From assembly GCF_944384735.1 (NCBI RefSeq), contig NZ_CALWUN010000004.1, forward strand, positions 1-59,762: DNA of 59,762 bases, written 5' to 3'. The stretch is from an uncultured Agathobaculum sp. (GTDB lineage: Bacteria; Bacillota; Clostridia; Oscillospirales; Butyricicoccaceae). The position numbers and the translations under genes are program-made. Below, piece after piece: positions 5,353 through 30,651 of this stretch (positions within the stretch are counted from its first letter, which is position 1; every line of letters begins with the position of its first letter). The notes beneath the pieces were generated by a model. The model was given only the letters and a program-made list of their open reading frames with translations. It searched no databases and had not been told where the DNA came from.

Positions 5353-5381
5353 TTGACATTTCGTCATGGTTCGACTATACT
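5353..5381 (+). promoter_or_regulatory. Promoter of the tRNA-Phe/tRNA-Gly unit
   Basis: Consensus TTGACA (5353-5358), a 17-base spacer and TATACT (5376-5381) lie just ahead of tRNA-Phe, so this is almost certainly its housekeeping sigma factor promoter. Confidence 0.85.
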
Positions 5382-5399: not shown

Positions 5400-5475
5400 G
5401 CCTCTGTAGCTCAGTCGGTAGAGCAGGGGACTGAAAATCCCCGTGTCGGTGGTTCGATTCCGCCCGGAGGCACCA
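5400..5475 (+). tRNA. tRNA-Phe (GAA)
   Basis: 76-base cloverleaf with acceptor GCCTCTG pairing with CGGAGGC, anticodon GAA in a GGGGA/TCCCC stem, a T-arm with TTCGATT, and an encoded CCA. First gene of a two-tRNA unit with the tRNA-Gly at 5749. A second, near-identical gene lies on the minus strand at 30402-30477. Confidence 0.96.
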
Positions 5476-5748
5476 TTTTTGAACAAGTGCCTTATGGCAC
5501 TTGTTCAAAAATCTTACCGCCGACGAAGGAATCGAAAGATGCGTCCAAGAAAATATGCCGGTGGCATATTTTCCGCATCGTGGCTTTGCCGCAGCAAAGC
5601 GATTCCGCCCGGAGGCACGATGCCAGCTGCGTAACCGTGATTCTAAGCAACGATTCCGCCCGGAGGCTTGATGCCATCTGTGCAACCGTGGCTCAAAGCG
5701 GTGATTCCGTCTGGAGGCTTCCCTATTCCGGCACAAACAACCGAATAT
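5476..5748 (+). repeat. Structured, repeat-rich spacer between tRNA-Phe and tRNA-Gly (copy A)
   Basis: 273 bases between the two tRNAs that do not look coding. It holds (1) a perfect 17-bp hairpin at 5475-5512 beginning at the last base of the tRNA CCA, loop TTAT; (2) a two-part hairpin, outer stem 5538-5543/5574-5579 and inner stem 5549-5558/5564-5573, loop CGGTG; (3) the hairpin GCTTTGC-CGCA-GCAAAGC at 5583-5600; (4) a 51-base tandem repeat whose units start with a copy of the tRNA-Phe 3' end, at 5600-5618 (19 of 19 bases), 5651-5667 (17 of 17) and about 5702-5718 (diverged). A homologous spacer lies at 30181-30401 on the other strand. What it does is unknown. Confidence 0.85.
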
Positions 5749-5824
5749 GCGGCTGTAGCTCATCTGGTAGAGCGCCACCTTGCCAAGGTGGAGGTAGCGA
5801 GTTCGAGCCTCGTCAGCCGCTCCA
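5749..5824 (+). tRNA. tRNA-Gly (GCC)
   Basis: 76 bases with acceptor GCGGCTG/CAGCCGC, anticodon GCC within a CCACC/GGTGG stem, T-arm GTTCGAGC and encoded CCA. It follows the spacer and is closed by a strong terminator. A second copy lies at 30105-30180 on the minus strand. Confidence 0.96.
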
Positions 5825-7734: not shown

Positions 7735-9105
7735 ATGGCCCTGTCTATCAAGCCCTATATTGAAAACAAGGAACGCATCCACCTGATCGGCATCGGCGGC
7801 GTGTCGATGAACTCACTGGGACAGCTGCTGCTCCACCGCGGCGTGCCGGTCAGCGGCTCGGACCGCCTGCGCACCGACGTGACCGCGCGGCTCGAAGCGC
7901 TGGGCGCCAAGATCGCTTACGAACACAAGGCTGAAAACGTCGAGGGTGCGTCGCTGGTCGTGCGCACGGCCGCCGTGCATGACGACAACCCGGAGATTGC
8001 CCGCGCGCACGAGCTGGGCATCCCGGTGATGGAGCGCGCCGAGGCATGGGGACACCTGATGCGCGATTATGAAAATGTGGTCTGTCTGGCCGGTACGCAC
8101 GGCAAGACGACCTCGACCTCCATGATGACGCTGGTGGCCATGGAGGCGCAGCTCGACCCAACCGTCATGGTCGGCAGCAACCTGCCCGCCATCGGCGGCA
8201 CGCTGCGCATCGGCGGCAAGGGCTGCTTTGTCGCGGAAAGCTGCGAATACTGCAACTCGTTCCTGTCCTTCGCGCCGACGGTCGCGGTCGTGCTCAACGT
8301 CGAGGAGGACCACCTCGACTTCTTCAAGGATCTGGGCGATATCATCCATTCCTTCCGCGCCTTTGTCGAGCTGACGCCGATGAACGGCCTTGTCGTTGTC
8401 AACGGGGACGACCCGAACGCCATGCGCTGTGTCGACGGGCTCGACCGCCGCATCCGCACCTTCGGTCTGAACGGGGATGCAGACGTGCGTGCGACCGATA
8501 TCCGTGACGAAAACGGCTATTACCGCTTTACCGTGCTGATCGACGGCGCGCCCTACGCCAAGGTGGCGCTGTCCGTACCCGGACGGCACAACATGCTCAA
8601 CGCGCTGGCCTGCTGCGCGGCAGCCGAGTTCCTCGGCGTGCCGGGCGAAGCGGCTGAACGCGGCCTGAACAAGTTCACCGGCTCTTCCCGCCGGTTCCAG
8701 CTGGTCGGCAAGATGCCGAACGGCGCGACCGTCGTCGACGACTACGCCCACCACCCGAGCGAAATGCGCGCCACGCTGTCTGCCGCCAAGGAGATGGGCT
8801 TCGACCGTATCCTGTGCGCTTTCCAGCCGCACACCTACACGCGCACCAAGGCGCTGTTTGCAGAATTTGTCGAAGCGCTCAAGCTGTGCGACCAGGCGGT
8901 GCTCGCGCCGATCTACGCAGCGCGCGAGCAGAACACGATCGGCATCTACTCGTCCGACCTGGCAAAGCAGGTGCAGGGCGCGGTCGCGCTGGACAGCTTC
9001 GCGGACATCGCCGCCTATCTCCGGCGTGAGGCCGGCCCGAATGACCTCGTGCTCACCATGGGCGCGGGCAATATCAACGAGGTCGGCCCGATGCTGGTCA
9101 AGTAA
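7735..9105 (+). CDS. murC: UDP-N-acetylmuramate-L-alanine ligase
   Basis: 456 residues. MurC adds L-alanine to UDP-MurNAc with ATP, the first amino acid step of peptidoglycan stem synthesis in the cytoplasm. The N-terminal UDP-binding loop is LIGIGGVSMNSLGQLL. The ATP P-loop GTHGKTTST begins at about residue 120. VLNVEEDHLDFF, GRHNMLNALA and DDYAHHPSE follow in the usual Mur-ligase order. The ATG is supported by AGGAGG at 7719-7724; the open frame extends 48 codons upstream without homology. Not in a larger division-and-cell-wall cluster here: flanked by spoVG and a terminator. Confidence 0.96.
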   Translation: MALSIKPYIENKERIHLIGIGGVSMNSLGQLLLHRGVPVSGSDRLRTDVTARLEALGAKIAYEHKAENVEGASLVVRTAAVHDDNPEIARAHELGIPVMERAEAWGHLMRDYENVVCLAGTHGKTTSTSMMTLVAMEAQLDPTVMVGSNLPAIGGTLRIGGKGCFVAESCEYCNSFLSFAPTVAVVLNVEEDHLDFFKDLGDIIHSFRAFVELTPMNGLVVVNGDDPNAMRCVDGLDRRIRTFGLNGDADVRATDIRDENGYYRFTVLIDGAPYAKVALSVPGRHNMLNALACCAAAEFLGVPGEAAERGLNKFTGSSRRFQLVGKMPNGATVVDDYAHHPSEMRATLSAAKEMGFDRILCAFQPHTYTRTKALFAEFVEALKLCDQAVLAPIYAAREQNTIGIYSSDLAKQVQGAVALDSFADIAAYLRREAGPNDLVLTMGAGNINEVGPMLVK

Positions 9106-15653: not shown

Positions 15654-15699
15654 TGCATGTCCGCAAAAGACCCGCACAGGCGTGCGGCTCCGGCTTATT

Positions 15700-15788
15700 C
15701 CAGCATCCCTACGTTGGCATTATCCAAATCAGGTAAGGTCGAGGTCGAAACCTCCTCTCAGCCTCCTTGCGGAAGCTCCCTTGCTGAT
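15700..15788 (-). ncRNA. TPP riboswitch aptamer
   Basis: Read leftward it has the THI-box consensus in order: AAGGGAGC, GCTGAGAGGAGG, TTACCTGATTTGGATAATG and CCAACGTAGGGA, closed by a P1 helix CAGCA/TGCTG. It binds thiamine pyrophosphate and represses thiD-thiW-thiM-tenA-thiZXY when thiamine is plentiful. A -35-like TTGACA lies just upstream at 15817-15822; the matching -10 is not clear. Confidence 0.95.
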
Positions 15789-15879
15789 ATATAACGTTAT
15801 CACTTGTCGAAACATTTGTCAATAGGGAGGGGCGGCAATGGACAGCCAGACACCCGGGCGCGGCCACGCACATATCCCC

Positions 15880-30104: not shown

Positions 30105-30180
30105 TGGAGCGGCTGACGAGGCTCGAACTCGCTACCTCCACCTTGGCAAGGTGGCGCTCTACCAGATGAGCTACAGCCGC
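30105..30180 (-). tRNA. tRNA-Gly (GCC), second copy
   Basis: Identical in the mature region, as far as I can compare, to the gene at 5749-5824, with anticodon GCC and encoded CCA. Confidence 0.95.
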
Positions 30181-30401
30181 ACATTTGGTTATTTGTGCCG
30201 GAAAAGGAAAGCCGTCGGACGGAATCATCGCTTCGCGCCGCGGTTATACAGATGGCATCATGCCTTCGGGCGGAATCGCTTTGCTGCGGCAAAGCCACGG
30301 CGGTTGAAACAATCCACCGGATTGTTTCTAAGAGCCGCCTTTCGATTCCTTAGTCGGCGGTAAGATTTTTGAACAAGTGCCTTATGGCACTTGTTCAAAA
30401 A
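30181..30401 (-). repeat. Structured spacer between tRNA-Phe and tRNA-Gly (copy B)
   Basis: Read leftward it has the same order as copy A: a 17-bp hairpin after tRNA-Phe (30365-30402; same stem, loop ATAA instead of TTAT), then CTTACCGCCGAC and AAGGAATCGAAAG, a two-part hairpin (outer 30299-30303/30335-30339, inner 30306-30314/30320-30328, loop CGGTG), the identical GCTTTGC-CGCA-GCAAAGC hairpin, and two tRNA-3'-end-like units (about 30260-30278 and 30208-30226) about 51 bases apart. It has one 51-base unit fewer than copy A. The stems of the two-part hairpin differ in sequence from copy A but still pair. Confidence 0.85.
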
Positions 30402-30477
30402 TGGTGCCTCCGGGCGGAATCGAACCACCGACACGGGGATTTTCAGTCCCCTGCTCTACCGACTGAGCTACAGAGGC
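30402..30477 (-). tRNA. tRNA-Phe (GAA), second copy
   Basis: Same mature sequence as 5400-5475: acceptor GCCTCTG/CGGAGGC, anticodon GAA, encoded CCA. A hairpin TTCTTCGG...CCGAAGAA (about 30482-30508) separates it from tRNA-Asp and may guide processing. Confidence 0.96.
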
Positions 30478-30622: not shown

Positions 30623-30651
30623 ATTATATCGAAAATACAGGCAATTGTCAA
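30623..30651 (-). promoter_or_regulatory. Promoter of the Asp-Phe-Gly-Cys tRNA operon
   Basis: Perfect TTGACA, 17-base spacer, perfect TATAAT, read leftward; a GC-rich hairpin lies between it and tRNA-Asp. It begins 19 bases after the hslO stop. Confidence 0.9.

Follow-up and report, generated by a model that had tools for sequence, protein, structure and literature searches.

The hairpin between tRNA-Phe and tRNA-Gly is read here, with moderate confidence, as a copy of a family of miniature, probably non-autonomous mobile elements that insert in tRNA genes at the T-loop. The proposed family ranges over Oscillospirales and some other Clostridia. Judged from sequence comparison, it is the arms derived from the tRNA, together with the flanking copies of the tRNA, that point to insertion.

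The element in its genomic context

The window (the whole stretch of 59,762 nucleotides that was analysed) comes from a genome of 2.06 Mb which is 83% complete; the genus is probably Agathobaculum. ARAGORN finds two tRNA-Phe to tRNA-Gly pairs in the window, at 5400-5824 (+) and 30477-30105 (-). Both spacers have the same order: a palindrome, the element, and then at least one direct copy of the tRNA-Phe 3' end (Table 1). The spacers (273 and 221 nt) can be aligned over their whole length, as stated in an earlier note on this DNA. That note also gave the hairpin as the only difference between them, which is not the case; the tRNA-Phe 3' end is directly repeated in both spacers, which gives copy A one 51-bp unit more than copy B, and scattered substitutions also occur. 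In the spacer of copy A, ATTCCGCCCGGAGGC is found at 5457 (inside tRNA-Phe), exactly at 5602 and 5653, and with 2 mismatches at 5704. Since they lie 3' of promoter-like sites of tRNA clusters, both element copies are probably transcribed.

Table 1. Coordinates of the two tRNA-Phe/tRNA-Gly regions of the window and of the parts of the element
Feature	Position	Strand	Basis or detail
Sigma-70-type promoter-like site 5' of tRNA-Phe, copy A	5353..5381	+	TTGACA-17-TATACT, 11/12, consensus match only
tRNA-Phe (GAA), target gene of copy A	5400..5475	+	ARAGORN; Rfam tRNA 68.4 bits
Perfect palindrome right behind the tRNA-Phe CCA, separate from the element, copy A	5476..5511	+	z -8.7
Element copy A, whole	5528-5606	+	R1 match; the copy is itself part of the R1 model
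Copy A, 5' arm GGAATCG, antisense of tRNA-Phe 56-62	5528..5534	+	Sequence
Copy A, core	5535..5599	+	Fold, covariation
Copy A core, AAA and then stem P1	5538-5543/5574-5579	+	Fold, covariation
Copy A core, stem P2 with tip GGT	5550-5559/5563-5572	+	Fold, covariation
Copy A core, GTGG	5580-5583	+	Fold, covariation
Copy A core, hairpin P3	5584-5589/5594-5599	+	Fold, covariation
Copy A, 3' arm and tail, direct copy of the tRNA-Phe 3' end (CGATTCCGCCCGGAGGCAC)	5600..5618	+	Identity to tRNA-Phe
Second direct copy of the tRNA-Phe 3' end, period 51	5651..5667	+	Repeat comparison
Third direct copy of the tRNA-Phe 3' end, diverged	5702..5718	+	Repeat comparison
tRNA-Gly (GCC) 3' of copy A	5749..5824	+	ARAGORN
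Promoter-like site of the Asp-Phe-Gly-Cys cluster with copy B	30623..30651	-	TTGACA-17-TATAAT, 12/12, consensus match only
tRNA-Phe (GAA), target gene of copy B	30402..30477	-	ARAGORN
Perfect palindrome behind the tRNA CCA, separate from the element, copy B	30366..30401	-	z -8.1
Element copy B (5' arm 30343-30349, core 30279-30342, 3' arm 30272-30278)	30272..30349	-	Fold; R1 104.1 bits (copy in model)
Tail of the tRNA-Phe 3' end copy behind copy B (GCCCGAAGGC)	30262..30271	-	Sequence
tRNA-Gly (GCC) 3' of copy B	30105..30180	-	ARAGORN

The palindromes right behind the CCA have 15 pairs each, with a T-run first and an A-run last, and are thus not usual terminators. In several relatives, some of which lack the element, a palindrome just as perfect but of another sequence occupies this place behind the tRNA.

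The hairpin had not been recognised as a member of a known family, and Rfam 15 agrees: only tRNA and TPP are found in the window, with nothing on the element at the gathering threshold or at E up to 5, and no family lies on the element in the loci of 20 relatives. The TPP riboswitch is located at 15688-15792 (-) and scores 66.7 bits.

Structure and covariation

The element is ~78 nt long and forms a three-way junction, with the closing arm GGAATCG/CGATTCC in both window copies. The two-part hairpin described earlier (P1, an internal loop, and P2 with the tip CC-GGT-GG) is one arm of this junction; GTGG and then P3 follow. Its stems are as claimed, the outer being GATGCG/CGCATC in copy A and GGCGG/CCGCC in copy B and the inner AAAATATGCC/GGCATATTTT in A and GAAACAATCC/GGATTGTTTC in B; the loop is CCGGTGG. 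None of 200 dinucleotide shuffles folds as well as either window copy (z -4.6 and -3.7). The constant part is a core of ~65 nt, consisting of AAAG, P1, P2 with the CC-GGT-GG tip, GTGG, and P3, in which the structure is kept.

Changed bases with conserved pairing are found well beyond the two window copies; the covariation is genuine and strong and extends through the order. Without any fitting to a model, a MAFFT alignment of 10 copies has 98.4% of its cells paired, and both partners are changed at 7 of 25 pairs. With model fitting, 112 copies (107 distinct) have 2599 cells, of which 96.8% pair, and 22 of the 25 pairs are double-changed. Pairing is 95.6%, with 21/25 pairs double-changed, in another fitted set of 100 copies, 89 of them distinct; most of these come from other families, and at least one contig is common to the first set (L131 and L205, matched by their length). 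Comparison with chance had been named beforehand as a test of the covariation: no shuffle out of 500 equals the pairing observed in the 112 copies, and sliding the partners by 1-3 columns gives 26-47 double-changed cells against 395, although model fitting favours structure and these controls leave relatedness in.

The closing helix covaries because both of its arms derive from the tRNA. P1, P2, and P3 lack this link with the tRNA, and their covariation therefore has to be explained by something else, namely selection on the fold. In the sense-strand helices, with the arms excluded, there are 58 G-U cells against 30 A-C cells (196 copies); the figures are 41 against 16 after a similarity filter (106 copies) and 25 against 10 after a stricter one (53 copies; p 0.017). 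This excess favours the sense strand as the folded molecule, as for RNA, although model recruitment and a C-to-T bias of the sense strand could give the same effect.

The hairpins of copies A and B are not two unrelated insertions. The window copies align over their full length with eight others, some of them intermediate; L006, one of the intermediates, has the inner stem of copy A. The model scores of the window copies are no proof of kinship, because both copies are in the model.

Arms and flanking copies derived from the tRNA

The frame around the core was compared in a pooled set of 168 distinct copies, made up of 53 from the genus (all of those listed), 46 further copies from the family, and 69 among the order matches listed. 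A same-strand tRNA lies within 75 nt upstream in 110 of these copies, and 24 anticodon types are represented. The 58 without such a tRNA include later tandem units and contig-end copies; a few have no tRNA anywhere in the fetched stretch.

The 5' arm is an exact 7-mer antisense to positions 56-62 (T-loop/T-stem) of the adjacent tRNA in 87 of the 110 copies. Permuting the tRNAs among loci gives a mean of 28.3 matches, with a maximum of 41 in 2000 permutations. The arm departs from the tRNA 7-mer in 23 copies, none of which pairs with its own 3' arm. The G370 copy (GGAGTTG/CAACTCC), considered as a compensatory change of the closing arms, is not among the departing arms, which means that its tRNA has an identical T-loop.

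On the other side of the core, the 3' arm continues into a copy of the 3' end of the adjacent tRNA (the right copy), which extends to the CCA in 72/110 loci. It goes beyond the CCA by at least 10 nt in 23 loci, and by at least 30 nt in 14 of these; no right copy is aligned in 11. By inspection, the terminator-like hairpin of the tRNA precedes the element in many loci, and the 14 long right copies have a terminator-like hairpin on both sides. In some (G029:C44, G041:C255, G195:C20, and G183:C24) the left and right hairpins are nearly identical. The native downstream sequence resumes after the right copy, as at empty sites.

Relatives with a long core are found outside the order. Their duplication, which includes the terminator region, is exact over 63 nt in L280 and near-exact in L278 and L281, and the inverted arm spans the whole T-loop, across the proposed nick position. 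In L278 and L281 the arm recurs 3' of the right copy, in L278 with the first core bases as well, as in A. desmolans; this recurrence fits partly decayed tandem units.

Distribution of the element

Two covariance models were used, R1 built from 10 copies and R2 from 112. The search of related genomes proposed in the earlier note finds the element at every level: in 18/25 genomes of the genus (R1, E up to 0.1), 36/87 of the family (R1, E 0.001), at least 109/394 of the order, representing 55/168 genera (R2, E 0.001), and at least 17/391 of the class (R2, E 0.0001), 5 of which are the source genome or of the same order. The order and class counts are lower bounds, due to stricter filters and the scoring of 12 candidates per genome. 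A genome has no more than 10 matches in the searches of the genus and of the family, which scored 150 and 54 candidates per genome, respectively; in the order search the maximum is at least 12.

A 21-base pattern search of named genomes matched 56 contigs. Fifty-four belong to Agathobaculum, Butyricicoccus, Pseudoflavonifractor, Heteroscilispira or unclassified Oscillospiraceae, Clostridia, Clostridiaceae, Clostridiales, Eubacteriales, and Bacillota; four of these (L132, L152, L177, and L178) are interrupted or cut. In the pattern contigs from Thermoguttaceae and Verrucomicrobia, the sequence does not go on as the element. Plasmids and sequenced phages have no match to the element. Seven viral contigs contain the pattern: it belongs to one unrelated sequence in five, and to loci at tRNA 3' ends in two (L264; L265 by inspection). 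On L264 (1451-2608, -) a tyrosine-recombinase-like ORF (so named by inspection) and prophage-like ORFs lie after a tRNA-Ser pair with an element copy.

A Gly-linked version, with 11 hits in 9 genomes of the genus, is located 51-57 nt 3' of tRNA-Gly. This suggests long vertical retention, and the version may be an old or domesticated copy.

Occupied sites, empty sites, and arrays

A pattern for a short Phe-Gly spacer has 19 matches in 10 genomes of the genus. In 14 of them, from 9 genomes, a full tRNA-Phe lies directly in front; these are true spacers of 6-8 nt. The matches at G023:C34 and G012:C24 are right-hand copies behind elements and not empty sites, and at G015:C54, G001:C59, and G012:C34 the tRNA-Phe is lost at the contig end. 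Both states of the Phe-Gly pair occur in one genome, G023, which has an occupied (C34) and an empty (C4) site. G012 was discarded as a second such genome, because the contig stops at its short-spacer match and any tRNA before it is out of view.

The earlier note suggested that the hairpin is perhaps a processing signal or an RNA of the Phe-Gly spacer. Phe-Gly pairs of sister species with element-free spacers of 6-8 nt rule out the processing signal, as tRNA maturation in the genus needs no element, and the element stands behind 24 anticodon types. Of that interpretation, the covariation and the lack of a known family are supported; a processing or RNA role tied to the Phe-Gly spacer is not.

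Another pair of states is found at an Arg-His spacer, which follows directly after the tRNA in L039 and follows, nearly unchanged, after the right copy in L038, from another species. L058 has a remnant with arms and without the core, which is a deletion. Tandem arrays also occur, with units 107-203 bp from start to start; Agathobaculum desmolans has three units of 117 bp and a partial fourth.

Copies at different tRNAs within one genome have a mean core identity of 0.814 (88 pairs), a value which is inflated by the relatedness of genomes; it compares with 0.737 (sd 0.014, maximum 0.797 of 500) when genome labels are shuffled within tRNA type, and with a mean of 0.786 (282 pairs) for the same tRNA in different genomes. 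The test used 88 of the 110 copies, excluding Gly-linked and unusually long or short ones. In G101, the Tyr, Phe, and Gln-CTG copies have one P2 5' strand (GGCGGGGCGCC), and the Phe copy bears a Phe arm; the Gln-TTG copy has a different P2.

Related and neighbouring structures

Two long forms (L049:1501-1619 and L073:1016-1132) have an extended P3 (GTAGGCCGACAACC...GGTTGTT) and may be closer to an ancestral, larger element. Weak matches occur at L067:1501-1539, on contig C19 of the source genome, and at L084:962-1052, with no tRNA in the fetched stretch. Both have P2 with a CC-NGT-GG tip in the frame GCGAGCCGT...AGCGTGCGGGG, and are perhaps a non-tRNA relative of the element.

The Thr-Tyr spacer of the SIG492 MAG (L130:5450-5585) has another core in the same frame, with an antisense T-loop arm and a copy of the tRNA-Thr 3' end to the CCA; this is perhaps a second core family of the same architecture. 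The same contig has near-identical modules at 5671-5820 and 7763-7912, each consisting of a terminator-like hairpin, an arm, a core, and a tRNA-Tyr 3' end; the second has no tRNA in front.

In two MAGs, another repeat (GGGGAG...GCTGCCRGTGGCAG...GCACCGCAACAGG) splits the element right behind the CCGGTGG tip (L132 from ~7325 and L177 from ~320). The spacer from His-GTG to Gln-TTG (e.g. L038, L041, and L055) contains a different hairpin, such as GACGCGCTGC...GCAGCGCGTT, in at least 14 such spacers listed. The Rfam Gut-1 RNA (RF01706) adjoins a distant relative of the element at L276:931-1007 (+) and L284:918-993 (+). PMC2864571 gives Gut-1 as known from environmental sequences only, with the taxa 'Human gut only'. 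It was rejected as the identity of the element, since in L276 it is adjoining, on the opposite strand, and of different sequence.

Candidates for a partner enzyme

Candidate partner enzymes do not follow the element among the 87 genomes of the family. The Y1 transposase (Y1_Tnp) is found in 11/36 element-bearing and 20/51 other genomes (Fisher p 0.50). RVT_1 is found in 11/36 and 15/51, and the IS110 recombinase in 17/36 and 20/51; neither tracks the element. No RVT_1 was found in G008, which is 99% complete and has 10 element copies. Among the loci examined there is no autonomous long form with a gene in the loop; the split cores of L132 and L177 were considered as such a form, and the insert is the other repeat. 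Apart from the wide pair in L130, which has ORFs between its copies, the units are too short to hold an integrase gene between the tRNA 3'-end copies.

Origin of the element

Insertion at the T-loop could proceed as follows. Of two nicks in the tRNA gene, the first would fall near 56/57 and the second, in the opposite strand, ~20 to 85 nt further along. The element would enter as a folded single strand, either as DNA or as RNA copied to DNA. Gap filling would then produce the direct copy of the tRNA 3' end, so that the tRNA stays intact; the inverted arm would arise at the three-way junction by strand-switch or fold-back copying. One core could thereby invade many tRNAs, its ends always matching the new target. 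The copying step is the weakest part of this mechanism; the inverted arm of the long-core relatives crosses the nick site, so a simple fold-back from 56/57 is not enough for every arm.

Evidence for mobility comes from the patchy multi-copy distribution, the tRNA-matched arms, the right copies, the empty sites, the arrays, the sharing of cores within genomes, and the covariation of P1-P3. Counted against it are the lack of a partner enzyme and of a plasmid or phage match, the 11/110 copies without a right copy, the 23/110 departing arms, and the 58/168 copies without a near tRNA. The retention of the Gly-linked version, the phylogenetic confounding of within-genome similarity, the G-U excess of the sense strand, and the arms of the long-core relatives also weigh against it.

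A stronger form of this reading, which we put forward only tentatively, is that the mobile element makes its terminal inverted arm out of the sequence of any tRNA gene that it enters. The folded core would insert at the T-loop, target-primed or fold-back copying would make the antisense arm, and a staggered cut would restore the tRNA. Mobile DNA classically lands in tRNA genes, which are essential. If the stronger form is true, a single element would be able to spread over many tRNA genes without harm to them; in an order of gut bacteria, where it sits behind at least 24 kinds of tRNA gene, it would be a new way to use a conserved target safely and to rewrite the element ends from that target. 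The element also explains long, variable tRNA spacers.

The evidence has to be weighed against three other explanations. Strong covariation, the preference for G-U over A-C on the sense strand, and the position of the window copies 3' of promoter-like sites of tRNA clusters would all suit a functional RNA family, co-transcribed with the tRNA, in which the three-way junction regulates or buffers tRNA maturation and the 3' tRNA copy sequesters the antisense arm. We consider this rather unlikely. The element is patchy across sister species, and even between the two Phe-Gly pairs of G023; many copies lie, by inspection, past a terminator-like hairpin. The pairing of the arms is accounted for by both of them matching the tRNA, with 0/23 departing 5' arms paired. 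It should be noted that covariation alone is no proof of a host RNA, as the closing helix covaries through arms copied from the tRNA.

Remnants of ordinary tRNA-site integration by the tyrosine recombinases of phages or ICEs, in which the core would be an attachment-site structure, perhaps a folded single-stranded one, are less probable again. The direct copies do have the shape of att sites, from T-loop to CCA, the two near-identical tRNA-Tyr modules of L130 lie 2.1 kb apart with ORFs between them, and on viral contig L264 a tyrosine-recombinase-like ORF (by inspection) comes after the tRNA-Ser pair with its element copy. However, outside L130 the units (107-203 bp from start to start in tandem arrays) leave no room for genes, an inverted arm is foreign to ordinary att duplications, and one core is common to 24 tRNA types. 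The duplicated terminator regions are locus-specific; they were therefore probably made locally and not brought in. The third explanation involves no mobility: replication would slip locally at tRNA 3' ends and palindromes would form there, with gene conversion homogenising the cores. This would be in keeping with the tandem and partial units and with the similarity of cores within genomes. It is highly improbable, given that the same core is found at unlinked tRNAs in many families and that empty sites exist.

Comparison with known systems

No description of the element family was found in the open-access papers searched, supplements aside; the unnamed candidates of PMC8040213 could include the element. 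According to PMC3116915, PMC3733652, and PMC2817692, REP/REPIN sequences are alike in being short non-coding palindromes which occur several times per genome and are probably non-autonomous. In contrast to them, the present element is located at tRNA 3' ends, is framed by inverted and direct copies of its target, and shows no co-occurrence with a Y1 transposase comparable to REP/REPIN with RAYT. REP/REPIN copy number is usually over 100 per genome (PMC2817692), whereas no genome searched in the genus or the family has more than 10 matches to the present element. The tetranucleotide tag beside the REP/REPIN palindrome is GTAG or CGTC (PMC3733652); the present element has a largely conserved GTGG 5' of P3, which is neither.

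Three other systems are associated with tRNA genes or with folded insertion sites. rtT RNA, a processed RNA that is released from the tRNA transcript, comes from repeats behind E. coli tyrT, each with a tRNA 3' end, and is known from one enterobacterial locus; the present element differs in having a structured core and an antisense arm at many tRNAs, and it has no Rfam match. Integrative elements that use tRNA sites produce a second tRNA 3' end, and the tRNA remains intact. The present element resembles these in the tRNA 3' end duplicated at its far end, where the CCA is reached in 72/110 loci. It differs in that the unit has no integrase or cargo, has an inverted arm and, in some loci, duplicates the terminator region as well. 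Integron attC and CTX-phage attP sites are folded single-strand sites with an imperfect inverted repeat, a closing stem like the target duplex, and extra hairpins; the present element uses the tRNA T-arm, not dif or attI, and has one core at 24 tRNA types. As the defining features tested are not all present, the element is not filed as a REP, a retron, an IS110-moved element or an integrative element. On the basis of its sequence features it is best regarded as a probably undescribed, tRNA-framed repeat family, to be classed with the miniature structured mobile elements.
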